A DNA stretch of 64,000 nt. Source: Limnobacter humi. Lineage in GTDB: Bacteria > Pseudomonadota > Gammaproteobacteria > Burkholderiales > Burkholderiaceae_B. Below are positions 37,538-55,024 of this stretch, in pieces. The notes below the pieces were generated by a model. The model had not been told where the DNA came from. It made no database searches and was given only the letters and a program-made list of their open reading frames with translations. The translations under genes were made by a program, and so were the position numbers. The stretch's first letter is position 1. Every line of letters begins with the position of its first letter. The DNA lies in NCBI RefSeq assembly GCF_024518835.1, contig NZ_JANIGO010000003.1, positions 62,001 through 126,000 on the forward strand. The letters run 5' to 3'.

Positions 37538-40500
37538 TCACTTTAATTCATAATCAGACAGTACCTTTCCTGAAGCAAGCGCATCCTTCAACCATTGCGG
37601 TCGACGACCTTTACCTGACCAATATTTACCCTGTCCGTCCCCGTATTTTTGAGCAGTCGCGATTGTACTTTTTTTTGCTTGCTTAGCATCACGAAAATCG
37701 GAAGGAGGTACTGCGTTTATACCCACGACCTGCAGAAATAGTGAACTATCTTCAGCCCGAAATTCCGAAGCCTTCGCTTCAAGAAGCTTTAACAATCCAT
37801 CGAAATCCAGTGTCTCTCCTTCGGGGTAATTCCAAGTACGGTTGGCCCGTTGAAGAACAATTACAAAGAAACCAATCTTTGAGTTGGGGGCTTTCATATA
37901 TTGCCCCTTTAACTGAGCTTCCAAAGCTTCTAGATAATTAGGAACTGTCCAATGCTCCGACATTTTCAGTTCAATCGTAGCCCGAAGGTCACCAAGTTGA
38001 CACAACACATCTCTACGGGTTGACTCTGGCAGAATGGACTCCAAAGTAACAGCATATCGTCCGCCGCTGGCGTGATTTAACTCACTACCGAGCAAAGCTT
38101 GAAAATCCTCCTCAAGTGCTAACCCTTCAGTGTCAGTCTTAATATGGTTAAACATTACTTTGCTGAAGAACCGCCGAAGACTGAATTCACCGCACTCAAT
38201 ATTCCGTTTAACAGTACCCAAATCGTTGCGAATTGTCTGGGCAAATTGTGTATAGCCTGAAACAGGCGGGGCAAAATCTCGCTCGAATTTTTCGTAGTGT
38301 CGTTGCTTAAGTGGTGCAATGTGGGCTTCTTCCTCTCGCATTTGAAATTGCAAATGACGGATATATCTCGCGCGCGTTCCAGAAGCTTTGACCCGTAGCC
38401 CATCGAGAGCGTCATACGCTGCTTGAGATTTAAGATTCGAAATCGCTGGCAGTAAAGCATCTCTGAGACGCTGAGCATTGTCACGTGGTTCGAACTGGTA
38501 CACGAGCCCATCGTCATGAATGATGTCATCAGACTCTTGAACTACCTCCACCACCCATTCGTAGAGTGACGAAAGAAGCTCCAAACCACGATTTCCTTGA
38601 TGCTTTATTGTGTTTAATCGACTTAGTCGATCTTGGCCAATGTGCGCAGCAATTTCAAACATGAATTTGTCCGCGCTATCTTTATGACTCACACGCCAGT
38701 TTTCGAAATCTCGTCTAAATGTGGAGGGGTAATTGAGTAGCCAAAATTGCCCCCATATTACTGCGTTTGACCTTAAACGCCCAATATCGGCCTCGGTCGG
38801 TTTCAGCACCGCAGACGCATCGTCTTCGCTATCACACGCAGAACTACCTTGAACTTGAAAAGCCTCGACTATGCGCGCTGCCGCCACCGATTCAAGTGCC
38901 GTCTGATCTAGGCTTCCTCTAATCTCCTCATTACTAAAGATGGCACTTAGAATATTTTCAAGGGTATGTGAGCTAACTGCGCTCGAATCCCTGGCTATTG
39001 TCCACAGTGAGTCATGTAGGCCGAGTAGAACAACGGGAGGGCATTCAGCAATATGGCGAATTAATTTCTCCACGATTTCCGCCGATTTACCACCCGAACC
39101 AAACTTAGCTAGGCAAGATTGAAATTCCGCAATTGCTATCGACGGATAGGATAATACAAGCGGCCAGAACCATTTTGGATAACCATTTAGCTCAAAATGA
39201 CCATAATTCAGAGCTTGTTTCACCTCTGAGTCCGAGAGCTTAGGGAGACTATCACCATTGCCTAAGTCCAAATGAAGACCTTGAAGGCCTGCGATAGTAA
39301 TGAGATAAATTGAATTTGGCTCAGACTCTTTGTATTGCGGAGGACGATCGCGCCAAATAGAGCGTAATCCCTGGTCAGCGGCCTTTCCTAACTCTTGTCC
39401 TGCTAGTTCTTCAAAAGCAGAGAAATCAAAATCACTGTAATGTGATAATTGGCTGGTCTGCGACAGCCATCGAGCGATCCAAATAAGAGCACCTGTGTTC
39501 GTGCCTGTACTTATGCTCTCTATTTCTTTTTGCAAAGCAATCTTGGAGGACTCATCCAATTTTAATCTGCTATTGTTTTTTTTCGCAGGTTGTGAGGATG
39601 GTTTACGCGTAGCCACATTATTTCTAAGTACCGTCATTAGCTCACTAAACCCGGCCTCAGAGACCGCCTCAGCATCACCTTCTGATAAAAATGATTGAAG
39701 CCGATGTGAACATAACTCACTCCATATACCGTCGGGTGTCCGATCACTTTTTCTGATAACTGCTCGAAATAAATTCTGACGAACAGCATCAGAAGACTTT
39801 AAAGCCCTACCTAGCTCGGTATGGTCAATACTTCCAAGGTAAAGTCGAGCGTTAGCTTCAAAATACTTCATACATAACTGAGTGGCGCGTTCTAACGACA
39901 GCTCTTCGTTCTTAATGACCAGTGCTATGAGGTCTCGAACAACATCCGCGTAGTCGTCGTTTCTATAATTTTCAGCGTGGCATTTTGCTCCATAGTACGT
40001 CACCATCCGAGATAACAATTTTTCGGTTAACGCGAACAGCTGTTCAGCACTTGCAGATTCCGCAATCGAATGCGTTAAGTCCCAACTTAAATTAAACCCG
40101 CCACCTTGATGCTCATATTGCCTGCTTGCTAGATCGGAGATAGTCTCTGCATCAAATTTCTTCCAGGCCAAGCCGACGAGCACAAGTCCAAATGCTCTTT
40201 GTTCAATTTTCGGAGTTAATTTTGCTGCCTCAGCTAGCCCCTGAAAGTCGTCTTCCCGATTAAGAGACAAGATGTACACAAGATCAGATGGACTGTTCAG
40301 AAGCTGAGCATAGTCGTTGCCATACGCAAAGAGAATCCGATCACGGAATACGTCTATCCGCGAATAGGTGGCAATGTCAAGTAAGGCAGAGCGCGCCTTG
40401 TATGAGTGCGCGTCAAGACGATCGTAAGCATTCTCAAGGGTTTCTTCGACCCCAGGTTTTCCGGCCTGCCAATAGTTTTCTGCAGTTAAATTGTAATGAT

Positions 40501-41974
40501 TCCGTCCAAGCGAATCGCCGAGCTTCTCTAGTCGCTCAATAGTAAGCTTAATCGCCAAACAAGCATCTGCCACTGGGAATTGTGAGTTTCTCAAGTCTCC
40601 GAAAAACGCAACTGCTTGGGGATCAATGTCTAGTAGCTCGGCCCTACAGTGAACGTTAAACGTTGCAAGCCAACCAGCAACAGCAAGATAGGCACTACGA
40701 ACTCCGCACTCACCAGTTACCGATTTCCAAGACAACTCAGCAACGAGTCGTCGAGCATCTTCGGGTGAGTTAACTCGCGCCGAAAGACGCTTAGCGGCGA
40801 GATAAGGTAACAACTGCTCAGGATAAATCTTTACTTGGTGGTAACCAGAATCGATGAATAACCTAGAACCAAGTAAATATTGAAGTTCACTTTCCGACAA
40901 CAAACCACCAATTAGTGGTCGAGTCGAAAGCACTCCCTCTTGTAATTTCAGGGCATCAGTCGACAACTCCAAATTTGGCAACTGACATATTGCTGATGCT
41001 CCAGCGAGCTTCTCTAAAGCATCGTTCAAGCTTCTAGTACAAGACAGCCCGACAATCTTTTCACGATGATCTGTGCGCTGTTGAGCTTGAACCCCCGCGA
41101 TCATGGTTTCAAAGATAGAGGTTAAATCGACTGGAGGGTTAGTCACTGGATCAACGTACGCAAGTATATCGAGACTTCCTGGACCCTCCGTAAGGTCACC
41201 CAATCCAAAACGCCAAGCTGCATCAAGTAGAGCCTTCCCATCGGCAATTGAGTGGCGACTCTCAAGGTAGAACTTAGCCGCTTTCGTCGATAAAGGAAGA
41301 AGTCTATATAACTTTAACTGTGCCTTTGAAACCAGCTTGGTTTTGATAGTCGTGACCGGATCAAGGCTAGAAAGATCTGAGAAACCATCGTCGCCAGCTG
41401 GCATATCTTCCAACGAATCCTCAGCCACTGATTCTTCAGCTTCGCCCAAATATAAATTAGTATCCAGCTCTGCTTGAATCACATCGAGCACCGCGGGCGT
41501 TAGTGTTGCTGGACGCGAAGTTAAAACCCAACTAACCTGATTTAATCTATCCCCCATGGCTTGAGTCACCCTCCTGAGAGCAGACTGCAAACCTGACTCT
41601 CGACCCAACACAGCCTCATCTATAGAATCTACAAAGAGAAAGAGCGGGGCTTCTAGATCAGATTTCCATGCTCTGTAAGCAGTTGCGTCACTCGGTTCTA
41701 GTGCAACTTCAAAGTCAGACTCAGCTAAAAGCCTATGGAGACTGGTAAAAACTGCATGGCGACCATTTTTTTGAAGGCGCCGCGTACTGGCCCGCAATTC
41801 CTGAGTTTTCCCAAAGTTGGCTCGGGCAGTGATAAGTGAAAAACGCTCTTCCAGGAGTTGTTCCCAGCTGATACGTTTACGAGAAATCACATCCGTAGCT
41901 ATTAGTTTATCGACTGAATATTCGGTCAATTGCCCGAAGCATCGTTCTAAATCAAGATATCCAGACATCAGCAC
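37538..41974 (-). CDS. STAND-like NTPase with PD-(D/E)XK-like segment and C-terminal H-NS DNA-binding domain
   Basis: A 1478-residue protein. Residues 46-60 read SLITARANFGKTQEL, a P-loop with GKT but Ala in place of the first Gly. Walker B is LFLFVDSIDEA (111-121) and VLTSRP (150-155) is sensor-like, all as in bacterial STAND/NACHT-type NTPases. A long helical region follows. Near 1329-1337, GDLRATIELK plus the helix LEALEAQLKGQYM resembles a PD-(D/E)XK nuclease (Asp1329, Glu1335, Lys1337). The last 35-40 residues contain KYWSGKGRRPQWLKDALASG, matching the H-NS C-terminal DNA-binding motif. STAND proteins with nuclease parts are known in phage defence; the H-NS fusion is new to me. It sits next to a type I R-M operon. 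A role in defence is inferred. Confidence 0.8.
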   Translation of the reverse strand: MLMSGYLDLERCFGQLTEYSVDKLIATDVISRKRISWEQLLEERFSLITARANFGKTQELRASTRRLQKNGRHAVFTSLHRLLAESDFEVALEPSDATAYRAWKSDLEAPLFLFVDSIDEAVLGRESGLQSALRRVTQAMGDRLNQVSWVLTSRPATLTPAVLDVIQAELDTNLYLGEAEESVAEDSLEDMPAGDDGFSDLSSLDPVTTIKTKLVSKAQLKLYRLLPLSTKAAKFYLESRHSIADGKALLDAAWRFGLGDLTEGPGSLDILAYVDPVTNPPVDLTSIFETMIAGVQAQQRTDHREKIVGLSCTRSLNDALEKLAGASAICQLPNLELSTDALKLQEGVLSTRPLIGGLLSESELQYLLGSRLFIDSGYHQVKIYPEQLLPYLAAKRLSARVNSPEDARRLVAELSWKSVTGECGVRSAYLAVAGWLATFNVHCRAELLDIDPQAVAFFGDLRNSQFPVADACLAIKLTIERLEKLGDSLGRNHYNLTAENYWQAGKPGVEETLENAYDRLDAHSYKARSALLDIATYSRIDVFRDRILFAYGNDYAQLLNSPSDLVYILSLNREDDFQGLAEAAKLTPKIEQRAFGLVLVGLAWKKFDAETISDLASRQYEHQGGGFNLSWDLTHSIAESASAEQLFALTEKLLSRMVTYYGAKCHAENYRNDDYADVVRDLIALVIKNEELSLERATQLCMKYFEANARLYLGSIDHTELGRALKSSDAVRQNLFRAVIRKSDRTPDGIWSELCSHRLQSFLSEGDAEAVSEAGFSELMTVLRNNVATRKPSSQPAKKNNSRLKLDESSKIALQKEIESISTGTNTGALIWIARWLSQTSQLSHYSDFDFSAFEELAGQELGKAADQGLRSIWRDRPPQYKESEPNSIYLITIAGLQGLHLDLGNGDSLPKLSDSEVKQALNYGHFELNGYPKWFWPLVLSYPSIAIAEFQSCLAKFGSGGKSAEIVEKLIRHIAECPPVVLLGLHDSLWTIARDSSAVSSHTLENILSAIFSNEEIRGSLDQTALESVAAARIVEAFQVQGSSACDSEDDASAVLKPTEADIGRLRSNAVIWGQFWLLNYPSTFRRDFENWRVSHKDSADKFMFEIAAHIGQDRLSRLNTIKHQGNRGLELLSSLYEWVVEVVQESDDIIHDDGLVYQFEPRDNAQRLRDALLPAISNLKSQAAYDALDGLRVKASGTRARYIRHLQFQMREEEAHIAPLKQRHYEKFERDFAPPVSGYTQFAQTIRNDLGTVKRNIECGEFSLRRFFSKVMFNHIKTDTEGLALEEDFQALLGSELNHASGGRYAVTLESILPESTRRDVLCQLGDLRATIELKMSEHWTVPNYLEALEAQLKGQYMKAPNSKIGFFVIVLQRANRTWNYPEGETLDFDGLLKLLEAKASEFRAEDSSLFLQVVGINAVPPSDFRDAKQAKKSTIATAQKYGDGQGKYWSGKGRRPQWLKDALASGKVLSDYELK

Positions 41975-42306: not shown

Positions 42307-45300
42307 TCAATCTCTTTCGATTTCTGCATCTTCAAACTTATCCGCCAAGGCAACAAACCGATCCCTCATTGCGTCTCCTACCTCTGCTCGTTTGGTGATC
42401 TTTGGCTTCACGGACAAAAGGTTGATCAATGTATTGCGATCGGGCAGGGTACCTCGGTACACAAAGTCCTGATAGAGCTCTTTGAGCCTCACGCAATTTG
42501 CAGAAAACTCAGTACAAATCGCCTCCAGGGCCTTACGCTTTTCCTGGTCTACAAACTCGTTGAATTTCGTGATCACGATACCTTCATCGTGCTGATTTTC
42601 ATCAAGCTTGAGCTTGTCGAGCTCCTCGTCGATGAAGGTTTCAAAGAGCTCTCGCTTGCTTCTCAAGTCTGGATTGGACTGCAACACATCGAGAATCATG
42701 TCTCGGCCAGCTGCAAATTTCTTCTCGTTGGATTGGTCCTTCAATTTCTCGATGAGACCCAAGATGTACGACACCGTGATCTCGTCTCGCTTGATTAGCT
42801 CGATCTGAAAGTCAATACCAAAAAGAACCTGTTGAATTGGGCTTGGTGGTTCTGGCTCGGCATCGCGAGTACCATCTTCAACTGATTTTGCCCTGCGTCG
42901 CTCCCGTTCAGCAGCCTCAATGTCCTCACGCAAGTCGAGGTATTTACTCTGGTAATCCAGCAGGCCCTGCTCATCAATGCCCAGCCCCCCCTTGTCCAAA
43001 TCACCATCAAATTGGGAGAAGGTTTTAAGGGTGTTCTGCAGTCGCAGCACATCGCGGAATTTCACAATGAAATCGAGCTGATCTTCCTCCTTGATGAGCT
43101 TATCGACGGCCTCCACGTCCGGGGCGATCGCTTTGAGCTTTTCAACCTCCACCCTGAACACTTCAATCAGGTCTTCATACGGCTGCATGATGACTGTACC
43201 AATCACCTCGTCCACGCTGGACTTGGCATTCTTGTTGGCGAAGATTGCCAGCGCCTCATCGGTTGCGTCTTTCAGGTTGCGGTAGCTAACCACGTTGCCG
43301 TGGGATTTCTTTGCATCAAAAACTCGATTGGTGCGTGAATAGGCCTGAATCAGCCCGTGGTGTTTCAGATTCTTGTCCGCGTAAAGGGTGTTCAAGCGTG
43401 GCGCATCAAAGCCGGTAAGGAACATGTTAACCACCAACAGAATGTCCACTTCCTTTCGTTTCACACGCTTGGACAAATCCTTGTAGTAGTCGTAGAAGGA
43501 CTTGTTGTCATTGGCCACATAGGACGTGCCATACATGGCGTTATAGTCAGCAATGCACCCTTCAAGAAACTGCAGGCGACTTTGGTCCACGTTCTTGCTC
43601 ATGTCTGGCAGGTCCTGGTCAGAAACACCCGAGAACTCATCAGCCTCGCCCGGGGCGCAGCTGAAAATGGTGGCGATTTTCAGGTCATGGGCACCAGAAG
43701 TCTTCTTGCTTGAAAAGATCTGGTAGTAGGTCTGCAGCACATCGACACTTGCCACGCAGAACATAGCGTTGTACTCCCGGCCATGAGTCTTGGCTCCATG
43801 TATTTCGATGATGTCGTCCACCACCTTTTCAATTCGGGCTGTGGACTCCAATACAGCTTTGCTGTTGGCCGCTTCAGGATCAAGTTGAGTGGAGGTCTTG
43901 GTGCCATCTGCTGCAATCGTGGTCTCAGTGATCACCACATTCACCATGTCCCGGTATTCCACCGAGAAGCGCAGCACGTTTCGATCCCGAATAGCATCTG
44001 TGATCACATACTTGTGAAGCGCCTGACCAAAAAGGTGTTCAGTCGTGCGTTTGCCGTACTTGGTGTTGGCCACGTTTGCATCGAAAATCGGTGTACCCGT
44101 GAAACCAAACATTTGCCGATTTGGGAAGAAATCACAAATGCGCTGGTGGGTTTCACCAAACTGGCTACGATGACACTCATCAAAGATGAAGACGAACTTA
44201 TTGTCTTTGACTGTCTCGCACTTTTCCTGAAATTGCTTCTTGCTGATCGCAGCGTTGAGCTTTTGGATGGTGGTAACGATCAACCGGCAATTGGGATCGG
44301 TCAGCTGTTTGACCAGCTTTTCCGTGTTCTCAGTGGTATCCACGCTGTCGGCGCTGAAGGCATTGAATTCCAGGGCGGTTTGGTAGTCCAGATCCCGCCT
44401 GTCCACCACGAACATCACCTTGTCCACGTTTGGGTCGTTGGAGAGCAATTGGCTGGACTTAAAGGAGGTCAGCGTTTTGCCCGAACCTGTGGTGTGCCAG
44501 ATGTATCCATCTCCGCGACCCAGCTTCACTCTTTCAAGGATCTTCTCGACAGCGTAGTACTGATAAGGCCTAAGCATCATCAAGGCACGGTTGGTTTCGT
44601 GCTGCACGATGTACCTGGCAATCATCTTGGAGAGGTGGCACTTCTCCATGAAGACTTCAGTGAACTGGGACAGCCGGTTGATCCGGTTGTTCTCGATGTC
44701 CGACCACTCAAAGGTGAACTGGTAGGACAAATCCTTGTTGTTGGCAAAGTAGCGGGTGTCCACACCATTGCTGATGATGAACATCTGGATGTAATCGAAA
44801 ATGCCGGAGTTTGAGCTGTAAGATTTTTTGCGGTAGCGAACAATTTGGTCAAACGCGGCACGGATTTCACTGCCACGGGCCTTAAGCTCAATCTGAACCA
44901 TGGGAAAGCCGTTTATCAGCAAGGTAACGTCGTACCGGCTGTGATTGTCAGCTGATTTGTTCGTGATTTGTCGGCAAACTTGGAAGATATTCTGGCACCA
45001 GTTGCGGGTATCGAAAAGCTCTAGGTAGATAACCGAGCCATCAGACCGCTCAACATCCAAACGCTTTCTAACTTGCTTAGACCGGTCAAAAATATCGCCT
45101 CGGTTAAGCTTGTTCATTACCTGATTGAACTCATCATCCGTCAGGCCAGTTGCACCCGCCTTGGCCAGCTCTGACTTGTTGTGCTTTTCAAGTTGGAGTT
45201 TCAGGTTAGCAACCAGGTCACGCTCATTGCGAATATCCAAAGGCTCGTAGCCCAGGGTTTCCAACTGGGCCACCAGGGCCTTTTCCATTTCGATTTCGCT

Positions 45301-45312
45301 TTGGGTTGCCAT
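42307..45312 (-). CDS. hsdR: Type I restriction enzyme, restriction/translocase subunit
   Basis: A 1001-residue subunit that translocates and cuts DNA. The N-terminal nuclease has Asp128 and the EXK-type motif IELK (141-144). The SF2 motor follows: Walker A TGSGKT (275-280), DECH (378-381), and FGFTGTPIF. A helical C-terminus would contact HsdM. Length fits the IC-like subgroup (about 1000-1040). It is the last gene of the operon, 6 bp after the 79-residue gene. No sign of decay. Confidence 0.96.
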   Translation of the reverse strand: MATQSEIEMEKALVAQLETLGYEPLDIRNERDLVANLKLQLEKHNKSELAKAGATGLTDDEFNQVMNKLNRGDIFDRSKQVRKRLDVERSDGSVIYLELFDTRNWCQNIFQVCRQITNKSADNHSRYDVTLLINGFPMVQIELKARGSEIRAAFDQIVRYRKKSYSSNSGIFDYIQMFIISNGVDTRYFANNKDLSYQFTFEWSDIENNRINRLSQFTEVFMEKCHLSKMIARYIVQHETNRALMMLRPYQYYAVEKILERVKLGRGDGYIWHTTGSGKTLTSFKSSQLLSNDPNVDKVMFVVDRRDLDYQTALEFNAFSADSVDTTENTEKLVKQLTDPNCRLIVTTIQKLNAAISKKQFQEKCETVKDNKFVFIFDECHRSQFGETHQRICDFFPNRQMFGFTGTPIFDANVANTKYGKRTTEHLFGQALHKYVITDAIRDRNVLRFSVEYRDMVNVVITETTIAADGTKTSTQLDPEAANSKAVLESTARIEKVVDDIIEIHGAKTHGREYNAMFCVASVDVLQTYYQIFSSKKTSGAHDLKIATIFSCAPGEADEFSGVSDQDLPDMSKNVDQSRLQFLEGCIADYNAMYGTSYVANDNKSFYDYYKDLSKRVKRKEVDILLVVNMFLTGFDAPRLNTLYADKNLKHHGLIQAYSRTNRVFDAKKSHGNVVSYRNLKDATDEALAIFANKNAKSSVDEVIGTVIMQPYEDLIEVFRVEVEKLKAIAPDVEAVDKLIKEEDQLDFIVKFRDVLRLQNTLKTFSQFDGDLDKGGLGIDEQGLLDYQSKYLDLREDIEAAERERRRAKSVEDGTRDAEPEPPSPIQQVLFGIDFQIELIKRDEITVSYILGLIEKLKDQSNEKKFAAGRDMILDVLQSNPDLRSKRELFETFIDEELDKLKLDENQHDEGIVITKFNEFVDQEKRKALEAICTEFSANCVRLKELYQDFVYRGTLPDRNTLINLLSVKPKITKRAEVGDAMRDRFVALADKFEDAEIERD

Positions 45313-45318
45313 GATGGT

Positions 45319-45558
45319 CTACTTGAATAGTTTTTTTAGTGATTTATTTAGCTCTGTTTTTGCATACGCTAGGGCCTGATCCTTACCCTCTTCTTTGGCT
45401 ACTTCAATAACTGAACTTTTCAATGACGACTCACCACAATTTGCACATTTAATGAGTTCATCTTCTGGGCTTTGTAAATCGCACGAATTTTTTGGAAGTG
45501 GTTGCAAGCAAAATAAGCATTTTAAAGCGATCGAAAACTCCTTGTTATCCAATCTCAA
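45319..45558 (-). CDS. Small zinc-ribbon-like protein within the R-M operon
   Basis: A 79-residue protein with two Cys pairs, CLFC (about residue 14) and CANC (about 38), spaced like a zinc ribbon, and a basic C-terminus. It overlaps orf138 by 4 bp and precedes hsdR by 6 bp, so it belongs to the operon. Family unknown. It could be an accessory or modulator of the restriction complex. Confidence 0.65.
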   Translation of the reverse strand: MRLDNKEFSIALKCLFCLQPLPKNSCDLQSPEDELIKCANCGESSLKSSVIEVAKEEGKDQALAYAKTELNKSLKKLFK

Positions 45559-45971
45559 CCTCCAAAAACCGCTAGACCAATCAACCCCAAAACCGCAGCA
45601 AAAATAGCTGTGGCCCCTTGATATTTATTAAAAAAGAGCAATGATCTTTCAAGCCAGCCTCGGCTTGCCTCTTGCTCTAGACTCGCCCTGTTGGATCTAA
45701 CCACTCCAACCCCTTGGGTGGTTAGGCACAGTCTAATGTAACGGCCTGAGCCACCCCCAAGAACAGTATGTTTTAGCCACTGATTAGCAATGCAAACCGA
45801 GCCCGCTGCATTAAATTCATCGATTGAAAGCTTTAAATTCATTTCCAAATTGAAAGCAGAAAGCGTCTTTTCATCTAAGTCTATGCGCCCAGTATTTGGA
45901 GTTAGACCCTGTTTTTCGTTCTGCCTGAAATGAAATTCAAGAATCGCCTCCTCTGCCTTTAATTTTTTCAT
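45555..45971 (-). CDS. Protein with C-terminal membrane helix within the R-M operon
   Basis: A 138-residue protein. The first 90 residues look like a compact helical/strand domain (possibly winged-helix-like), and the C-terminus has one hydrophobic helix (YQGATAIFAAVLGLIGLAVF), so it may be tail-anchored. It overlaps hsdS and orf79 by 4 bp each (ATGA type). I do not recognise the family. A membrane protein inside an hsd operon is unusual. Confidence 0.6.
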   Translation of the reverse strand: MKKLKAEEAILEFHFRQNEKQGLTPNTGRIDLDEKTLSAFNLEMNLKLSIDEFNAAGSVCIANQWLKHTVLGGGSGRYIRLCLTTQGVGVVRSNRASLEQEASRGWLERSLLFFNKYQGATAIFAAVLGLIGLAVFGG

Positions 45972-47221
45972 ATAGCTTCCGAAGTAAAAACTCTTTTCTT
46001 GCCCGTTAGTAGCTGCTGCATTAGGGCATCCTTTTCTTTTCGGAGCGACTTCAATCTTTCGTTAATCGCCCCTATTGATGAGTCTGCGAGCTTAAAGATT
46101 TCAGCAATCATCTCCTGCTCTTCAGTTGTAATTTTTGGAAACTGAATTTCCCCGACAATTGAGGTGTTGAGATTCCTCTGTGTCCCAGGCTGCCCTTCGC
46201 CATCAAGCTTGTCAGTAATAAATTGGATAACGTAATACAGAAGATTCAGAGAAAGTGAATCAGATGGGTTCCTGAAAACCACGAACCCATCATGGATACA
46301 TGCTGGGATTTTCACGAATTTCGGGACTCCGATAGTTGCACAAATTGACATTATTAAGTCACCGTCGTTTACTTTAACGCTTTTGCTCTCCCCAAGCGGA
46401 GACAGGTACTGGCTGGTTTTTCTAAAGAAGGGTGTTTCATCAGAGGTGACATCAGAAATTCTCACCCATCCCCTTCCTGAATCAGAAAAGTACGATGGAT
46501 CAGATATTGGTCGTGGAGAAGCTCCACGCCTAATTTCGCAAAGCGTTGAAAGCTTAGTGGTAGACCACGGTTGTTTGAACCCCGGCAATCTCTTCTTCCC
46601 AGTCAACAACTGCTGCATCAGCGCCTTCTTACGCTTCTTGCTGTTCTCTAAAAGTCGCTCAGTAGCCTCGATGGACTTGTCCCAGGCCGAGAGGATTTCT
46701 GCGATCTTGTTTTGTTCCGCCATCGAAGGGCAAGCAAATTTTTGATCTAAAAATTCACCCGTTCGAATATGCACCTGAGTGCTACCGACCATAATTCTCC
46801 GCATTGCCTTGCGGTATGGCTGAGAATTGGAGAGAGCACAAAAATAATCAGGATTCATGAATTCATTGATTTCCAAACCATAAGTGCCTTGCGATAGGAT
46901 AAATTCCAAGCCTTGCTGTATTCGTACGGCGAGACCAATTGAAGGCCCTGAAGGCACTAAATCTCTTAAAGTAACCACCACATGATTAGAGTCCACCTTG
47001 CTCTGCGCATTCGATTCAGCAAAAGATTCTGAGCAATAAGTGGGCTCATCTATAACTAACCAGCCACCCTCCTGAACTCCCTTTTTAGGTATCACTGGAA
47101 AGCCTGACTCACGAAAATCATCAGGAGTGAGAGATGCCCCTCCTTTATAGTTCTCTACAAAACTAGCGATGCTTTTTAGCTCCCAGCCCAATGGAGCTTG
47201 ATAATGAATTTGAACAGTCAT
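45968..47221 (-). CDS. hsdS: Type I restriction enzyme, specificity subunit
   Basis: A 417-residue subunit with two target-recognition domains and two conserved helical spacers. Each half ends in the same sequence, KKALMQQLLTGKKRLPGF (about 195-212) and KDALMQQLLTGKKRVF (near the C-terminus), which shows the internal repeat typical of HsdS. The DNA target cannot be predicted. It overlaps hsdM by 4 bp. Confidence 0.95.
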   Translation of the reverse strand: MTVQIHYQAPLGWELKSIASFVENYKGGASLTPDDFRESGFPVIPKKGVQEGGWLVIDEPTYCSESFAESNAQSKVDSNHVVVTLRDLVPSGPSIGLAVRIQQGLEFILSQGTYGLEINEFMNPDYFCALSNSQPYRKAMRRIMVGSTQVHIRTGEFLDQKFACPSMAEQNKIAEILSAWDKSIEATERLLENSKKRKKALMQQLLTGKKRLPGFKQPWSTTKLSTLCEIRRGASPRPISDPSYFSDSGRGWVRISDVTSDETPFFRKTSQYLSPLGESKSVKVNDGDLIMSICATIGVPKFVKIPACIHDGFVVFRNPSDSLSLNLLYYVIQFITDKLDGEGQPGTQRNLNTSIVGEIQFPKITTEEQEMIAEIFKLADSSIGAINERLKSLRKEKDALMQQLLTGKKRVFTSEAI

Positions 47222-48771
47222 GACAACCCCAACTCTTTCAAGTATCCCTGCATCTTGGCATTCAGCTCAGCGATCTCTTTTTCTATCTCAACCCGCTCAG
47301 CATTCACAGCCACAAGGTCGATTTCTTCCTCTTCCTCGAAGGTGTCCACGTAGCGGGGGATGTTCAGGTTGTATTCGTTCTCTGCAATCTCTGACAGAGG
47401 TGCCAGGTAGCTGTATTTCTCGATCGCTTGACGGCTGGCCAAGGTGTCGATGATCTTGTCTACATCCTGATTACGCAGGTTGTTCTGATTTTTGCCTGGC
47501 TCAAAATCACGGCTTGCATCGATGAAGAGAATGTTCTCTGAATCCTCTCGACATTTCTTGAACACAAGAATAGCCGCTGGGATACCCGTGCCGAAGAACA
47601 GGTTGGCTGGCAGGCCGATCACCGCATCCAGTGCATTCATTTCCCGAATGATATGCTCACGAATGTGACCTTCACTCGATCCACGGAACAAAACGCCATG
47701 GGGCACAACTACTGCGGCTACGCCCTTGTCGTCTAGGTGATGCAGCATGTGCTGAATAAAGGCCAAGTCGGCCTTGGTCTTGGGAGCAAGCTTGCCGTAG
47801 GGCGAAAAGCGATCATCCGACAACTTCAAGTCATTGGCATCCCAGTTCAATGAGAACGGGGGATTGGCCACAATCGCCTCGGCTTTTAGATCTGGGTGCT
47901 GGGGTCGCTCAAGCGTGTCGTCCTGCTTGATGTCAAAGTGTTTGTAGTGAACACCGTGCAGGATCATGTTCATCCGTGCGAGGTTGTAGGTTGTGCGGTT
48001 GAATTCCTGACCGTAAAACCGACCGACCTTCTTCACATGCTTGGCCACACGCAACAGCAAGGAGCCGGAGCCGCAGGTGGGGTCGTAGACTGACTTCAGT
48101 TCAGTCTTACCGAGACTCACCACTCTGGCCAATATTTCAGATACCTTTTGAGGGGTGTAGAACTCACCAGCTTTTTTTCCCGCATCTGATGCAAAATTGG
48201 AAATCAGGTATTCGTAGGAATCTCCCAATACATCGGCTTCAATTTGATTGATCTGGAAATCGATCTCGTCCAGTTGCTTGATGATCCCTTTGACCACCTC
48301 GTTGCGCTGATCTGGGGTTTTCCCCAGCTTTGAGCTGTTCAAATCCATGTCTTCGAACAGGTGGATGAATTCATCCTCAGACTCTTCACCACGGGTGCTG
48401 TTCTCAATGTCGGAGAGCAACTGCTGAATGTCACCAATCACAAAAGCGTCTTTGTCTGCTTTTATCTTCTTGGCAATCTGGTCAAAAAGCTGACTGGGAT
48501 TCAGGTGGTAGCCAAGTGCATCAACCGCCTCCTGGCGAACAGCTTCGATGATTTCTTTGTGGTCTGGGTTGGTTTCGTCCAAATCCTCATATTGAATGCC
48601 ATCGGCTTCCAGTGCGTTTTGTGCAATCGCGTAGAGGCGCTCAGACAGGAACTTAAAGAAGATGAAGCCCAGGATGTAATCCCTGAACTCATCACCACTC
48701 ATCTTGCCGCGCAGATAATTACAGATCGACCACAGTTGGGTTTGGAGGCGGCGTTTTTGTTCTTCAGACAT
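47218..48771 (-). CDS. hsdM: Type I restriction enzyme, methylase subunit
   Basis: A 517-residue N6-adenine methyltransferase. The AdoMet-binding motif DPTCGSGS (230-237) and the catalytic NPPF (303-306) are both intact. The N-terminal helical domain (HsdM_N) precedes them. It is the first gene of the hsdM-hsdS-orf138-orf79-hsdR operon, and starts 78 bp downstream of the recombinase module on the same strand. Confidence 0.96.
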   Translation of the reverse strand: MSEEQKRRLQTQLWSICNYLRGKMSGDEFRDYILGFIFFKFLSERLYAIAQNALEADGIQYEDLDETNPDHKEIIEAVRQEAVDALGYHLNPSQLFDQIAKKIKADKDAFVIGDIQQLLSDIENSTRGEESEDEFIHLFEDMDLNSSKLGKTPDQRNEVVKGIIKQLDEIDFQINQIEADVLGDSYEYLISNFASDAGKKAGEFYTPQKVSEILARVVSLGKTELKSVYDPTCGSGSLLLRVAKHVKKVGRFYGQEFNRTTYNLARMNMILHGVHYKHFDIKQDDTLERPQHPDLKAEAIVANPPFSLNWDANDLKLSDDRFSPYGKLAPKTKADLAFIQHMLHHLDDKGVAAVVVPHGVLFRGSSEGHIREHIIREMNALDAVIGLPANLFFGTGIPAAILVFKKCREDSENILFIDASRDFEPGKNQNNLRNQDVDKIIDTLASRQAIEKYSYLAPLSEIAENEYNLNIPRYVDTFEEEEEIDLVAVNAERVEIEKEIAELNAKMQGYLKELGLS

Positions 48772-48849: not shown

Positions 48850-49344
48850 CTAAACTAAGATCTCAGGATCGGGGTCCGAACCATCATGAATGTTACGTTT
48901 CAAATCTTCAAAAAACTTGGGGCCTCGGGGACCTTTGAGAAATCTGGCATTTTGAGGTCTCGAGAGGAAAGCCTCAAATTCAATAATTTTTCTTTCTTTT
49001 TCTCGAACCAATTCATCGCGAGTCTCTTGAAGATTGGCCTCAAGCTTACTTATAACTTCAAGTAGCCTTTCCTTGCTGTACTTAACATATGTTTTTAGAT
49101 GTAATGTATTACCCCTAGCATTTGTCTTGGCTTTGTCATAAGCGAGCTTGATCTCTGCAACGCTTCGAAGCGTTTTTTTGGTAGTTGGTGCATTCGGGCA
49201 CACCTCGCGATTTACATTCTCACAAATGTAGTCCCAAGTTATTTTTTCTCCTTTTCTTGACATCCCACTGATTAAAGCTTTAATTTTCGCGATGTCTACT
49301 CGGTTGAATTTTGCTGGACGACCACCAGCGTTCTTAATTGTCAT
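48850..49344 (-). CDS. Small coiled-coil helper protein of the recombinase module
   Basis: A 164-residue protein with a basic N-terminal part (GGRPAKFNRVDIAKIKALIS, HTH-like) and a predicted coiled coil (about 95-130, KERLLEVISKLEANLQETRD). It overlaps the long recombinase by 4 bp. Its position matches the small last gene (srap) of SE modules and, more loosely, TnpC of Tn554. Name based on context only. Confidence 0.65.
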   Translation of the reverse strand: MTIKNAGGRPAKFNRVDIAKIKALISGMSRKGEKITWDYICENVNREVCPNAPTTKKTLRSVAEIKLAYDKAKTNARGNTLHLKTYVKYSKERLLEVISKLEANLQETRDELVREKERKIIEFEAFLSRPQNARFLKGPRGPKFFEDLKRNIHDGSDPDPEILV

Positions 49345-51974
49345 GCGGCACCTTCATCTGGTCCTAGATACGGGCGATTCAATAAGCCTTTGGTTTCTTC
49401 TATTGCGAGTGATTGGTCCACAAAGGAAACTTGTTCTTTGTATCGCTTTCTATTTTCTGTATTGAGATGCTCAATCTTTTCTTCAATTCCGTCGATGTCA
49501 TTAATAAGCTTTGAGCGTATCTTTGCTTTATTGTCGCCAAGGTAACGCATAGAGTCACCTTTCTTGTAGCGATCATCACATTCAAACTCTATGTTTCTCT
49601 TCGAGACGAAAGCCTCTTCGACAGTTTGAAAAATGACGGGCCATTCTTTCAGTCGTTCATATTGAAGCTCAAAAAGCTCAATCAACTCATTGGTCATTTC
49701 AGCGGGGTCTAGGTCTCTATTTACAAGCAAAGGGAAGAGATTCTTAGCATCATCCTCGCTCATCTTTCCAGTCTCAATCGCATCAATATAGTGCTCCATC
49801 TGGCGATAAAGGAATTCGAATCCGCTCTCGTAAATCTTTTTCACTTGGGCGTATCGATGTTCATCTCCTTTGGTATAAATACGCTGATTACATCCGAAAC
49901 AATGTGTGACGATATGCTGACAAGGATGCAATACGTGGTCGTGTAAACAAGAACCATGCCTTAATGGGATCATAGTTCTGACTTTTCCTAAGGAGTCGAT
50001 CCCTGCATGAGCTCTATCTAAGGAATCTGATAAAGCAATAGTCACGTCTGAGCCATGGCTAGTACTGTATGTAAATGTCGTCAGCCCACGATCGGTTGCC
50101 CTTTTTCGTACTGAGGCGTCGAAATCTTTGATCATCTCACTGCAACCGCCAAGATCTTCAAGTAGACGCATTTCAAATTTTGAAGGGTGAAGAGAATTAG
50201 AGCGTGTGGTGGTTTCTGAAAAGGGTCTTCTATAACTTGATAGCTGCCCGATATCTTTTCTGTTGGCCCAACTATTGATCAGAACGTCAGACAACTTCCG
50301 CATTCCTTCTACGGCATTTTTGCACTCTAGTGCGTTGTCGGTTAGAAACCGCCGAAAGTCATGTGAGTCAATCCACGCTGGGACATCTTCATCAAACTGG
50401 ATCATCCTAATCCCTAAGTGATCGAAGAGATTTTTTTTTCGTCGTCCTTTTTTCCCGTTTGATTTTGCAAACTGCATCTGCAACTTATCTGAATCGATCG
50501 CTCCGATCAAAAAGGGGGCTTGACGCTCATAGTCCGAAAGACAAAGCATTTCTGATAATTTGCCGTAATAACGAGTGGTTGTCGTTATTCTTCTGGCAGT
50601 TGCTTCAGATGCCCGTATTCTTTTTAGTAGTATTTTTTTTATACCCTCGGCGTCATATGCTTCAACTTTTGTATTCCGTCGGTGCGATGGATTTAGTGGT
50701 TCAGTAACAAGTCCAGTTTTGAGTTCGTGCAACAAGAACCGTTCGCTTACGCCGCTTTTTTTGGACTTATCGACAAAATATTCCACGAATACGTATCTGA
50801 CGCTATTTCGAGCTGCCTTACGTCCAGCGCGGTCATCTGGGTCAGGAAAAGGTTCGCAAAAGTGAGTGATTCTGTGTATCTCATTTAGAGTCCACTCTGA
50901 CTTGTCTTTAAGGTACTCAAAGCCTGGTGGATAGTACAACTCATCAGGGTTGTCTTCATAGTAACGCGCCAGCATGCGTGAACGAGTTCCTAACTCGCGG
51001 AGCCGGTTCATGGTCTGTCCGCATAAATTATTCATGTGCTGTAGAACTGGCTTAGCACTATACTTTGCGCCCTTTGATCCTTTTTGTAATAACACGGTAT
51101 GACGATCAAACAACCTTTGGTGCGCGCGGTGTACATTAAGGGTGCCATGGTTGACCTCTTCATCGTGGTTCTCATCATTAGCATCGGAAAAATAACTGCG
51201 ATAATTGAGGGGAAATTCTTGATAAGTGTTCAAGGTAACAATGTCATTAATCGTCATCGAAAGAACTTCATTGATTCTTGCAGGTGCGCACAACTTAAGT
51301 ACATAAAATAGTGTTCCTTGCTCCTGTCTTGGTCCGAAGTATTTCTTTTCTAAATCAGTCTTATCTTCGTCAGGCGTAAAGGCGAGACGTAAGATATCTG
51401 TAAAGGCAGCTACCCGATGATCGACGTTGGTGTAGCCACCATTGTTGATATACCAATTATCTAGATTTTTTGTCTTATCCCCTTTTCTATAAAGATGGTT
51501 GAATCTCTCTTTGTCCCTATGCCACGAAAAATCAATTATCCCTTTTTCGCAGAAAAGGTTGGCTAGTGACTCTAGAGTCGAGGCCGAAGAAGCGATCGTT
51601 TTCTTGGCTTTAAATCGTTCCGCACATCGCTCCTGTGCCGCGTCGAAGTGTTCAGGTAAAAAACTAAAGATATTTTCGATGCCTGCTTGTATAAGAGTCC
51701 TGTAAACATTGTCTGCCAGCATGTTTGATTGAACGCCTGCTTCGATTCTGCTGCTCATGATGCATCGTAGTAGGGTGTCGCATGTCGGATCGAGGCCAAG
51801 CTCAAGCGCCTTCTGTTTTGTTTTCTTAAAATAGATTGGTTGGGTATAGGGAACTAGCCAAGTGTCACTTTCAAAAATAATTGATTGGTGGTTCAAGGCA
51901 AGAAAATTTCGGCTCGCATTCTCCCAGTCCGCCAGATTCCGCTCGCGCCTTTTTGTAATTAGGGAGTCACTCAT
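49341..51974 (-). CDS. Long tyrosine recombinase (IntB-like)
   Basis: An 877-residue site-specific recombinase. The catalytic set is readable: Arg233 in APARINEVLSM, His538-x-x-Arg541 in SHDFRRF, Trp569 and nucleophile Tyr581 in SSYRRPF. A Cys/His cluster follows (HGSCLHDHVLHPC, CFGC), which may bind zinc. The long C-terminal part has no close known fold. It overlaps both neighbours by a few bases (8 bp and 4 bp). Confidence 0.88.
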   Translation of the reverse strand: MSDSLITKRRERNLADWENASRNFLALNHQSIIFESDTWLVPYTQPIYFKKTKQKALELGLDPTCDTLLRCIMSSRIEAGVQSNMLADNVYRTLIQAGIENIFSFLPEHFDAAQERCAERFKAKKTIASSASTLESLANLFCEKGIIDFSWHRDKERFNHLYRKGDKTKNLDNWYINNGGYTNVDHRVAAFTDILRLAFTPDEDKTDLEKKYFGPRQEQGTLFYVLKLCAPARINEVLSMTINDIVTLNTYQEFPLNYRSYFSDANDENHDEEVNHGTLNVHRAHQRLFDRHTVLLQKGSKGAKYSAKPVLQHMNNLCGQTMNRLRELGTRSRMLARYYEDNPDELYYPPGFEYLKDKSEWTLNEIHRITHFCEPFPDPDDRAGRKAARNSVRYVFVEYFVDKSKKSGVSERFLLHELKTGLVTEPLNPSHRRNTKVEAYDAEGIKKILLKRIRASEATARRITTTTRYYGKLSEMLCLSDYERQAPFLIGAIDSDKLQMQFAKSNGKKGRRKKNLFDHLGIRMIQFDEDVPAWIDSHDFRRFLTDNALECKNAVEGMRKLSDVLINSWANRKDIGQLSSYRRPFSETTTRSNSLHPSKFEMRLLEDLGGCSEMIKDFDASVRKRATDRGLTTFTYSTSHGSDVTIALSDSLDRAHAGIDSLGKVRTMIPLRHGSCLHDHVLHPCQHIVTHCFGCNQRIYTKGDEHRYAQVKKIYESGFEFLYRQMEHYIDAIETGKMSEDDAKNLFPLLVNRDLDPAEMTNELIELFELQYERLKEWPVIFQTVEEAFVSKRNIEFECDDRYKKGDSMRYLGDNKAKIRSKLINDIDGIEEKIEHLNTENRKRYKEQVSFVDQSLAIEETKGLLNRPYLGPDEGAA

Positions 51975-53547
51975 TAGATTTGCCTAGTTTACTTTTGTAT
52001 GACTGACACGCTTGAATGACCGCCTCGATCCGTAGCGCTATCACATTTATGTTGTTGATTTCGAGTTGAAATGATGAAGATTTATGTGGTAGCTCTTCAT
52101 CTCTGTATTTGATTAAGTCACTTAGGACGGACTGATGGTCAGCATCTGCAAAAGGAATAAAAGACCTAGATGGACACAAATAACATTGGAATGGTACGCC
52201 TTCACATCTTTTCGTTTTACATGCACCTGTCGTAATTATTTCGACTCCAACCTTGGTTTGGATCAGTTGCTTTTGATCATAACGACCATTATTGACGTCA
52301 ACAGAAGCTTCAACTCTTTTAAGCAAATGGCTGAGTATCGGTGCAGTTTGTTCTTCAAACTTTTGTCCGAACTCATCCAAAATACCAGCGAAGCAGAGAT
52401 CAACATAATATTGCGCAGACCCTTCGTCTGTGTGTTGTAGGATTCTTGCTATTGTTCGCGACTCATAACCTAGCTGAGCAAGGTAAGTACCTATCGTATG
52501 CCTAATTACGCTGGTACCAATTACTCCGTGCCCAACCAGTTTTCTAATTGGGTTAAGGTAACTATTGCTCATTTGTCCAGGTCTAGCAAACCTGCCAAGT
52601 AGGGCAATCCACTCAAGCTTGTTAGCTTCTGTAGCATGCCCAGGACTAGGTGTTCGCTTCGTATCAGTACGATCGATTATTTCTTGCCAAAGGAAACTAG
52701 GAAATAGAGCGATCTCATCTAGATGATTTGGGAAGAATCGCCCTAATTTAAAGATCACTTCCTTCCTGTGAAGATCTAATCTATCTCCTACTTCTCTTGG
52801 CAAAGGCTGCAGTGAACCCTTGTCTCGTGCTTTGTCGAGTCGGGCCTTTGCGAGATAGGTTCGAAGGTACCATTCCTTTTCGTCGTGGCCACCCGAATTT
52901 TTTATGTTTAACTGTATGAGATCAGATACCTTGCATGGCCAAAGATTGGCATCGCGCGCGTTAGTTGATGCTTGTGTTGCGAAGTAAACAAAATGTTGAT
53001 TCGAAATTTTGCCGTCTGCTAAAGCTGTTTCTAACTGAGCCCATATGGACGCGTATGTGGCGGGTGACATTGCTTTGCTAACAATCGACGTAACCATCGA
53101 CTTAGTAGAGTCTTGTTTTAGTTTTAGTATGCCTATGACTCTCTTATTCACAGTGTCATCAAATAACTCTCTGCCTAAATCTTTTCTGTCGAACGCTCGC
53201 TCAAAAATGGACTTGATACCCCTCTGTTTAAACCTCTCTGGCAGCTTCGCGTTGATATAGGCTATGTCAAATGACGAGAGACGGTCCTTTATTCCATCCT
53301 CGAAGTGAATTTGAATCAGCGCGTTAAAATTCTCTAGGTAGCCTTGGAAGGTTAGTAGCGCGGGACTCCTTGTTGCCTCAAATTCAGTACATAACCTAAG
53401 AAGCAGAAGCCATCTCCTACTGTAGTTTTTTAGGCCGTTGCGATAGTCCAAATTGAAAGGTTGATAAGGTCTTTCTTTGTGCACTATTGAGAAAATTAGA
53501 TCATCATTTTCTTCATGAAAAATGGTGCTAGTTTTGCTTTTATGCAT
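51967..53547 (-). CDS. Degenerate tyrosine-recombinase homologue (cds2-like)
   Basis: A 526-residue protein (ATG at 53547; a TTG 11 codons earlier is an alternative). The fold is that of a tyrosine recombinase: the C-terminal IRHTIGTYLAQLGYESRTIA and LQHTDEGSAQYYVDL align with boxes II and III, including a His and Tyr. The second catalytic Arg (HxxR) is replaced (HTIG), so activity is doubtful. A Cys cluster (CKTKRCEG, CYLC) lies near the end. It overlaps intA-like and intB-like genes, and may be structural. Confidence 0.8.
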   Translation of the reverse strand: MHKSKTSTIFHEENDDLIFSIVHKERPYQPFNLDYRNGLKNYSRRWLLLLRLCTEFEATRSPALLTFQGYLENFNALIQIHFEDGIKDRLSSFDIAYINAKLPERFKQRGIKSIFERAFDRKDLGRELFDDTVNKRVIGILKLKQDSTKSMVTSIVSKAMSPATYASIWAQLETALADGKISNQHFVYFATQASTNARDANLWPCKVSDLIQLNIKNSGGHDEKEWYLRTYLAKARLDKARDKGSLQPLPREVGDRLDLHRKEVIFKLGRFFPNHLDEIALFPSFLWQEIIDRTDTKRTPSPGHATEANKLEWIALLGRFARPGQMSNSYLNPIRKLVGHGVIGTSVIRHTIGTYLAQLGYESRTIARILQHTDEGSAQYYVDLCFAGILDEFGQKFEEQTAPILSHLLKRVEASVDVNNGRYDQKQLIQTKVGVEIITTGACKTKRCEGVPFQCYLCPSRSFIPFADADHQSVLSDLIKYRDEELPHKSSSFQLEINNINVIALRIEAVIQACQSYKSKLGKSNE

Positions 53548-55024
53548 GGTTACTACCAAGAATTCTATTCTTGAGTTCAATAACTAGGTCATGGAAATCT
53601 GATCGCACACCGTTTGCAAAAATTTTTTCCACTCGTTTCGCATACAAAGCAGCCATCTCACTTTCCGGAGCCCAGCCAAAAACTTGGACTAGGTACTTTT
53701 CTAGTGCACTTAGATCTTTTGAAATTTCGATGGTTCTGAGCTCGTCGATGATGTGTCTTGGTGCATTTATCTTTTCGAGTTCCTGAACGATCCTCGCCGC
53801 TCTCGATCCAGTGTGAAACCAATTTATTGCGCGCTCACACACGCCGCTATGACGAAATACATGCGGTCGACACTCATATTCGTTGTTGCCCGTATCTGTA
53901 ATGAAGGGGTCCGAATCGTCAATTTTTAGAAGTTGTTTTGCAGATAAGCCCTCCTTCAAAAGTCTAAAGGTCTCTGTGACGTGTTCGCGATTTGTATATG
54001 GTAGCCCTGAGCTAGGTTGGATAAATAAGAAGCCGTGTGTTCTGTCAGAGCCGTATTTATCAACAATTCTTTTCCTCTGAGTCAAATATTGCTTGAAAAA
54101 GAAATTAGTTAAAGGATTAATCATGAAATGGAAAACTGATTCTCGAGGGTCGGCAAATCTTTGTTTTAGACTTGCTGTGCCACGTTTTCTTTTGCCACCG
54201 TTGACTTGATACCAGTACTGCTCATTACCGCGGACAAGCAACATCCCGTCATCCTTGTGATCTTGAATTCTCAAATTAGCCACAGCGCCACGGCGTAATC
54301 CCTCGCTACAGAGCAATGCGACTAATTGATGCTTCATGAGGTTAGTGGAGGGTTTACCGCCTCTTGTTAGAAAGGCTTCTTCAGGCTTTAGTGCGATCAA
54401 TTCGATTATTTGGTACCAACGACTTTGAGGGTACGAGCTGATTTGTGATTCATGGGGCTTCCCAGTTGGTACGGCGTCTTTAAGGATCTTTAAAATCTCA
54501 TCCAGCTCGTTACGAAGAGAACCGGATCTGTCGAAGTTAACCATCTCTTTACCAAAGAATCGGTAATGATGTTTTAGGTATGAAGACACTACTTGCACAC
54601 GCTGAGAGTATGTACTCAAGGCAACATAAGCTGCGTCTACCGATGGTCTACCATTTTTCGTAATTAAACGAATTTTTCTGAGCTGTGCCTCTCTCGCATA
54701 AGCATTCATCAGTCTGCCTGGAATTTGCCTGCAAGACTTCATGAAGTTGTATGTAAAACCAAGCCAATATTTCAATCTTAGGGCTTGGTGAGAATCTAGA
54801 TATATTCCTTTTTCAAGAATATTTTTTTCAATCGTAATTCCTTCTAGCGAAAGAAAAAGTTCAAACGATTTAAGTGCATCGTGATATTTAATTTGAGAGT
54901 CTACTTTGGGAGGAGAAGTGGAACTACCTAAGAAATTCAGAAAGTGTGATTGTGGGAAAAGTACTATCCCATCATGCGTCTGCACGATGGTTCGTAAGTT
55001 TCCAATCAGAATTTGTGTCTCCAA
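53540..55024 (-). CDS. Tyrosine recombinase (IntA-like)
   Basis: A 494-residue site-specific recombinase with a full catalytic set: Arg245 in GLRRGAVANL, His388-x-x-Arg391 in HVFRHSG, Trp451 in VFGWAP and nucleophile Tyr461 in ALYAKR, with W-to-Y spacing as in the family. First gene of the module, reading inward from the right end of the island, about 160 bp from the junction. Probably performs excision and integration together with the other two. Confidence 0.9.
   Translation of the reverse strand: METQILIGNLRTIVQTHDGIVLFPQSHFLNFLGSSTSPPKVDSQIKYHDALKSFELFLSLEGITIEKNILEKGIYLDSHQALRLKYWLGFTYNFMKSCRQIPGRLMNAYAREAQLRKIRLITKNGRPSVDAAYVALSTYSQRVQVVSSYLKHHYRFFGKEMVNFDRSGSLRNELDEILKILKDAVPTGKPHESQISSYPQSRWYQIIELIALKPEEAFLTRGGKPSTNLMKHQLVALLCSEGLRRGAVANLRIQDHKDDGMLLVRGNEQYWYQVNGGKRKRGTASLKQRFADPRESVFHFMINPLTNFFFKQYLTQRKRIVDKYGSDRTHGFLFIQPSSGLPYTNREHVTETFRLLKEGLSAKQLLKIDDSDPFITDTGNNEYECRPHVFRHSGVCERAINWFHTGSRAARIVQELEKINAPRHIIDELRTIEISKDLSALEKYLVQVFGWAPESEMAALYAKRVEKIFANGVRSDFHDLVIELKNRILGSNHA

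Follow-up and report, generated by a model that had tools for sequence, protein, structure and literature searches.

The window analysed here, 64,000 nucleotides of Limnobacter humi contig NZ_JANIGO010000003.1 (positions 62,001 to 126,000), encodes on its minus strand a protein of 1478 residues in which a nucleoside triphosphatase (NTPase), a PD-(D/E)XK-type nuclease and a C-terminal H-NS DNA-binding domain are joined, and our analysis confirmed that this fusion is real. On balance we think it probable that the product is a STAND-like (bacterial NLR-like) defence protein against phages, a relative of HyoA and EruA with a C-terminal DNase effector and an H-NS tail that would aid an AT-biased hold on DNA. 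The gene is one unbroken reading frame (41974 to 37538, 1478 codons and a stop); the plus-strand frame over 37538-41974 has many stops. The Pfam family Histone_HNS (PF00816) was matched at residues 1443-1476 with 39.3 bits against a gathering cut-off of 25.6 (E 5.6e-10). All parts of the protein are kept in two full-length homologues of 58-59% identity, from Massilia rhizosphaerae (L007) and from a same-genus genome (L124), and for this reason we do not regard the fusion as a product of chance. An earlier note, made from the sequence alone, had described the same 1478-residue fusion and its C-terminal H-NS motif, and both descriptions held. Translation may begin at a GTG at 41974 (1478 residues) or, two codons on, at an ATG at 41968 (1476 residues), the latter being the better fit to the starts of L007 and L124 (MMTDYLDLERRFG and MTEYLDLERHFG). 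The gene and its parts are listed below with the basis of each in brackets; row counts refer to the alignment described in the next section.

37538..41974, minus strand: HyoA/EruA-related STAND-like NTPase-nuclease with an H-NS tail, 1478 aa (reading frame and NCBIfam matches)
41804..41827, minus strand: Walker A, residues 50-57, A-R-A-N-F-G-K-T (alignment; strand-loop-helix in the model)
41612..41635, minus strand: Walker B, residues 114-121, FVDSIDEA (alignment; beta strand 111-116 in the model)
41510..41521, minus strand: TSRP, residues 152-155 (R154 in 34 of 34 rows having the N-terminal part)
38585..40696, minus strand: helical solenoid, residues ~427-1130, presumed sensor (model helices; Foldseek)
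37715..38134, minus strand: PD-(D/E)XK-type nuclease, residues ~1281-1420 (model topology; weak structure matches)
37964..38041, minus strand: active-site stretch with E1312, D1322, E1335 and K1337 (each in 35 of 36 rows)
37547..37648, minus strand: H-NS DNA-binding domain, residues 1443-1476, with K-G-R replacing the Q/R-G-R hook (Pfam PF00816)

Conserved motifs and predicted structure

Homologues were compared in an alignment of 36 rows, the window protein included, made without L011 (broken over several frames), L003 (broken), L123 (cut by a contig end), L126 (the same locus as L008) and the split or partial L104, L128, L129, L134 and L135. Two rows, L004 and L125, have no true N-terminal part and are misaligned in the P-loop columns, and were left out of the N-terminal counts, which are therefore of 34 rows. 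Walker A, Walker B with an acidic pair and a conserved arginine are motifs of STAND / NACHT NTPases, and the window protein has the whole set, with G55, K56, D116, D119, E120 and R154 invariant in all 34 rows; the GKT, FVDSIDEA and TSRP motifs named in the earlier note are among these. The absence of the first P-loop glycine, which had seemed odd, proved ordinary in this family, since the position is A in 15 rows, G in 12 and S in 7. In the nuclease, E1312, D1322, E1335 and K1337 are each kept in 35 of the 36 rows (the exception, L133, is without the region), and the E...D...ExK motif of PD-(D/E)XK nucleases is conserved over the homologues. Two of the three catalytic residues first suggested, E1335 and K1337, are among these; at the third, D1329, only 5 of 36 rows have an aspartate, and the conserved one is D1322, preceded by E1312.

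AlphaFold models were built from small alignments (10 sequences for residues 1075-1478 and 9 for residues 1-1080) and reached middling confidence, with a mean predicted local distance difference test score (pLDDT) of 74.3 and a predicted template-modelling score (pTM) of 0.47 for the C-terminal model, and 73.5 and 0.44, respectively, for the N-terminal one. Residues 45-153 were modelled as a P-loop strand-loop-helix with Walker A and B followed by a strand ending in TSRP, and residues ~427-1130 as a long series of helices. Residues ~1281-1420 have the PD-(D/E)XK order of strands and helices, a beta-beta-beta-alpha-beta core bearing E1312/D1322/E1335/K1337. In a Foldseek comparison with solved structures the first match to residues 1-1080 was Avs4 bound to a phage portal (E 9.5e-4, TM-scores 0.17 and 0.12), which was the sole match at E <= 0.001 and was followed mostly by long solenoid proteins. 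For the C-terminal model the top match was the nuclease Cdn1 (probability 0.99, E 8e-3), with the restriction enzyme EcoO109I at rank 6 (E 0.06), and in a viral structure library a Synechococcus phage restriction endonuclease stood at rank 2 (probability 1.00, E 2e-3). Sequence-profile searches of solved structures returned nothing useful.

Relation to known protein families

The NCBIfam profile for HyoA (NF058534), a NACHT domain-containing antiphage protein, was matched with 432 bits (E 4e-129), below its cut-off of 1200, in two stretches, the best of which places residues 793-1420 on positions 830-1426 of the 1430 in the profile. The profile includes the nuclease region of the window protein and stops where the tail begins, and it gives similar scores with L006 and L010, two sisters without the tail, and with L007, which has it (467, 436 and 416 bits, respectively). 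The match to EruA (NF058535) is weak (75 bits, below the cut-off of 1000), its best stretch being residues 215-755, with the nuclease part outside it. Among six distant relatives the Pfam NACHT family was found in L110 only, below its cut-off (E 0.0065), and no PADLOC family, AVAST (Avs) included, matched the window protein at E <= 1. Avs4, the best structure match to residues 1-1080, is a STAND NTPase with helical repeats, and Avs1-4 carry nuclease effectors (PMC12931631). The order of the parts is different, in that Avs proteins have an N-terminal effector whereas the window protein has its NTPase at the N-terminus and its nuclease at the C-terminus. The core is a relative of HyoA and EruA and is Avs-like, with its domains in another sequence; the curated cut-off excludes it from HyoA, and the arrangement of its domains from Avs.

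The earlier note knew of no described defence protein with this order of domains. An NTPase first and a nuclease last are common to the aligned relatives, and the HyoA profile spans the nuclease; what is special with respect to the relatives is the H-NS tail only. The tail shares with H-NS and StpA-type proteins the DNA-binding domain (PF00816), with no match to the rest of H-NS: the NCBIfam StpA model gave 18 bits over residues 1431-1475, below its cut-off, and the StpA and H-NS models match the C-terminal stretch only, far below cut-off. Whereas members of the H-NS family are small and have an N-terminal oligomerisation domain, the window protein is a 1478-aa NTPase of which the H-NS domain makes up ~2%. 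H-NS recognises the AT-rich minor groove via a Q/RGR motif (PMC4466236); the hook of the window protein is K-G-R in place of Q/R-G-R.

No publication on HyoA was found among the matches listed, and 'Hyo' and 'Eru' are absent from the main text of PMC13092281. The only bacterial gene named EruA among the matches listed is, by the start of its abstract, a SlyA-like regulator and not this protein. No fusion of H-NS to a defence protein appeared by title or abstract start among the matches listed, and an H-NS tail on such a switch looks like a new variation.

Distribution and role of the H-NS tail

Relatives were collected by a scan of genome contigs (nine relatives), by searches with a tail-less query (matches in 4 of 200, 21 of 398, 3 of 62, 6 of 146 and 3 of 64 genomes, every count including the centre genome) and by a class-wide search with the whole protein, which matched 16 of 274 genomes, seven of them by small H-NS frames only. 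The sequences of those seven, of 34 of the 37 matched plasmid records and of the matches G493, G502, G749, G798, G804, G092, G251 and G267 were left out. Most matches were distant (~21-35% identity over pieces). For the tree, L133, which is without the C-terminal part, was excluded and the first open piece of L003 was added.

The tail was found at seven loci, namely the window, Cupriavidus (L003), M. rhizosphaerae, the same-genus genome L124, a Thiocapsa-family genome (L125), Thiocapsa (L004) and a Burkholderiales metagenome bin (L005), and these form one clade (SH-aLRT 100). It is absent from the four-member sister clade and from 25 further tree rows, and no H-NS motif was seen by eye in the last 60 residues or the 60 post-stop codons of these 29 rows. 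Because the tail marks one supported clade and the 29 other rows are without it, a single gain is the simplest history. The tree was a quick build in which long branches meet between L127 with three further rows and the group of 11 rows to which the window protein belongs, so that the deep position of this group is unsure. The survey of homologues suggested in the earlier note thus found the same fusion in seven loci, together with 29 rows that keep the nuclease and NTPase motifs and have no tail.

This distribution bears on the proposal, made in the same note, that the H-NS domain is the sensor and that the AT content of incoming DNA switches on the NTPase and nuclease. The domain is real and conserved within its clade, the neighbours of the gene are restriction genes and H-NS proteins recognise AT-rich, often foreign DNA (PMC4466236). 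However, the 29 tail-less rows all keep the nuclease and NTPase motifs, and the host chromosome contains AT-rich DNA as well (42-49% GC in the island that holds the gene), so that binding alone would fire the nuclease on self. Given the narrow distribution of the tail and the presence of AT-rich self DNA, we regard composition-triggered sensing as possible but unsupported, and quite unlikely.

What stands at the same place in other relatives points instead to a helper of the effector. Of the 30 alignment rows that do not belong to the tail clade, 13 have an extension of at least 20 residues after the last nuclease strand, which is net positive in all 13 and in 10 of them lies in the top 2.5% of same-length windows of its own protein; several of the 13 rows are closely related, and they are not 13 independent events. 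As tail-less relatives bear net positive extensions here, we consider it most likely from sequence comparison that the tail helps the activated nuclease to hold DNA, with AT-rich DNA preferred. The pattern suggests that the post-nuclease slot may serve better DNA binding and that one lineage put a folded binder of AT-rich DNA there.

Beside what is observed (the architecture, the conserved motifs, a tail in a single clade and, in many relatives, basic tails where the H-NS tail would stand), the mechanism that we favour would run as follows. In the resting state the NTPase and solenoid would keep the protein inactive until the solenoid recognises some phage component. Nucleotide-driven assembly would then follow, by analogy with Avs proteins, and the clustered PD-(D/E)XK domains, to judge from their conserved motif and predicted fold, would cut DNA. 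The H-NS domain, on a short linker after the nuclease, could insert its AT-hook-like K-G-R into the minor groove and so give a stronger hold on DNA and an AT bias. A bolder version, which we think rather unlikely, is an NLR-like nuclease with a built-in reader of xenogeneic DNA: after the sensor fires, H-NS would steer cutting to AT-rich phage or mobile DNA and partly spare the GC-richer chromosome. Were this true, the protein would destroy the invader with partial sparing of self, unlike the indiscriminate suicide of other STAND nucleases; Avs1-4 nucleases are described as cutting the genome of the phage and that of the host alike, which ends in altruistic cell death (PMC12931631).

Several observations weigh against a nuclease switch of this kind with a DNA-holding tail. 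In the profile searches proposed earlier Histone_HNS, above its cut-off, was the sole Pfam family at E <= 1 in the window protein, with no Pfam NACHT or nuclease match at that threshold. The usual STAND order has the effector N-terminal, the NTPase central and the sensor C-terminal (PMC12931631), and the window protein departs from it, with its P-loop at residue 50 and its nuclease at ~1281-1420, which is why we label it 'STAND-like'. The pTM of the models is 0.44-0.47. With the C-terminal model, ranks 2-5 among solved structures were an unrelated dioxygenase (probability ~0.2), Foldseek found nothing there at E <= 0.001, and the match at rank 1 in the viral library, a phage protein with an XRE domain (E 2.8e-4), is not named as a nuclease. 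Structure prediction, to which the note had also looked, gave the nuclease-type topology and a tail modelled only at low confidence (means of 38-64 over 10-residue blocks from ~residue 1425), and the case for the H-NS tail is one of sequence and not of the model. The other 17 tail-less ends, which are shorter, comprise 11 with a net positive charge, 4 neutral and 2 negative ones; the four untruncated H-NS tails carry +1 to +6 as against up to +14 in Lys/Arg tails, and since they are less basic the likeness between the tails is one of position rather than charge. Between L007 and L124 the synonymous divergence (dS) of the tail is 0.98 as against 0.13-0.30 in other regions, for which recombination or small-sample noise is a possible explanation. 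Finally, two of the seven tails contain a stop, given which the tail may be dispensable.

The last point invites the view that the tail is a dispensable addition, acquired a single time, that is now drifting and matters little for defence. The stops lie at the same Trp codon, TGA in L004 (L004:4050-4142) and TAG in L005 (L005:10372-10452); L004 in addition has altered conserved tail residues and is in two pieces on two contigs, and tail-less sisters exist. The condition of the genes tempers this evidence. Only the window gene, L007 and L124 are intact; L003 has a frame break near residue 1120, L125 is interrupted after ~residue 401 with the tail Trp in place, and with L004 likewise broken elsewhere the tails of these three say little. 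L005 is full-length and intact up to its TAG, and it comes from a metagenome contig of coverage 5.4. The motif is kept in five of the seven tails (Cupriavidus, Massilia, the window genome and the Thiocapsa-family genome), the hook being K-G-R at four loci and R-G-R at two, with R-G-P in L004, whose gene is broken. For the tail, the ratio of nonsynonymous to synonymous divergence (dN/dS) comes to 0.13 in the pair of L007 and L124 (43 codons) and to 0.24 when the window is compared with L124 (dS 1.88), and the third pair is saturated; elsewhere in the L007-L124 pair it is 0.16 in the nuclease and 0.64 in the linker. We therefore hold drift of a dispensable tail to be unlikely.

The same stops could be taken as readthrough that controls the tail in part of the clade and yields two isoforms, as H-NS-like codons continue in frame beyond each to a later stop, and L004 and L005 are not sisters in the tree. 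The Trp codon, though, provides 2 of the 5-8 transition-to-stop changes in the four tails examined, making coincidence likely, L004 is broken elsewhere and Trp is kept in five of the seven tails, L125 included; readthrough is in our view exceedingly improbable.

Integrated decoys occur in plant NLRs, and the tail, an add-on of one clade in a presumed sensor family, might serve as a lure for phage proteins directed against the DNA-binding domain of H-NS, their binding triggering the NTPase. The Arn protein of phage T4 mimics DNA and has been proposed to target that domain (PMC8501957). A decoy would sit less well after the nuclease, where many relatives have basic tails, than in the presumed sensor solenoid, and we judge this highly improbable.

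No copies were found in phages at E <= 1e-5, and none was confirmed in viral contigs (20 pattern matches). On plasmids, 37 records matched, all at less than 60% identity and none reaching 80% coverage, with no near DNA match. A match on a Ruegeria plasmid (L138) that extends past an annotated stop had been taken as a third case of readthrough; it contains no H-NS motif. In a set of 143 genomes from one class, 22 of which had a match, H-NS domains lie in frames of at most 219 residues, with exceptions in G274 (the window gene, and some open frames of 271-455 residues whose content was not examined) and in G1245. The latter is a second giant fusion (L139, G1245:C55:1-14000), with an H-NS domain at 8922-9008 within a 3948-residue frame from 5232, which by its appearance we take to resemble polyvalent injected phage proteins.

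Genomic surroundings and implications

Upstream of the fusion gene lies a type I restriction-modification system, with the following genes.

42307..45312, minus strand: hsdR, 332 bp upstream of the fusion gene (profile matches)
45555-45971, minus strand: 138-aa gene between hsdS and hsdR (no Pfam, PADLOC or NCBIfam match at E <= 1)
45968-47221, minus strand: hsdS (profile matches)
47218-48771, minus strand: hsdM (profile matches)

These genes and the fusion gene (45.9% GC; 39.8% at third codon positions) lie in an AT-rich island from 36 to 56 kb with 42-49% GC in 2-kb bins, the remaining bins having 51-66%. At its far end (48850-55024, minus strand) are three overlapping genes and a 164-aa gene, at 41-43% GC; two of the overlapping genes (537 and 494 aa) have weak integrase matches, the third (877 aa) has no meaningful family match, and together the genes are probably the mobility module of the island. 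Gamma-mobile-trio, considered as a possible carrier element, was not established as such.

The host genome has an H-NS-type gene of its own, and the gene and island are AT-rich, which would suit a tail that keeps the protein at AT-rich islands covered by H-NS or that vies with host H-NS for the AT-rich promoter of its own gene. Tail-less relatives manage without such a device, and we consider localisation or autoregulation very unlikely.

The context favours a defence role, with type I restriction-modification genes in the window and beside L124, which is divergent from a type I hsdM, and with ZacA/ZacB-like genes beside L005. The latter pair (L005:1355-5636) is directly upstream of the homologue (PADLOC E 0.0017 and 1.4e-12). 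In L125 a 187-aa gene (L125:15195-15758) with weak PADLOC matches to HEC-01B overlaps the end of the homologue. In the region L007:3301-6001, the Massilia homologue starts 871 bp past a gene that we presume to be glmS, and glmS is a classic insertion hot spot (the Tn7 site).

The interpretation in the earlier note is partly supported overall. A single chain does combine a STAND-like NTPase, a PD-(D/E)XK-type nuclease and an H-NS reader, and its gene sits in an AT-rich island next to type I restriction-modification genes; the part given to H-NS, that of the trigger, was not supported, since a domain of a single clade that 29 rows lack, many with a plain basic tail in its place, points to a helper of the effector. 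At its C-terminus the family has a slot that seems to be filled by basic tails or, in their stead, by a folded DNA-binding domain, and in this clade H-NS silencing and NLR-like immunity are linked in one molecule, which would make it directly testable whether base composition can bias a defence effector towards foreign DNA.

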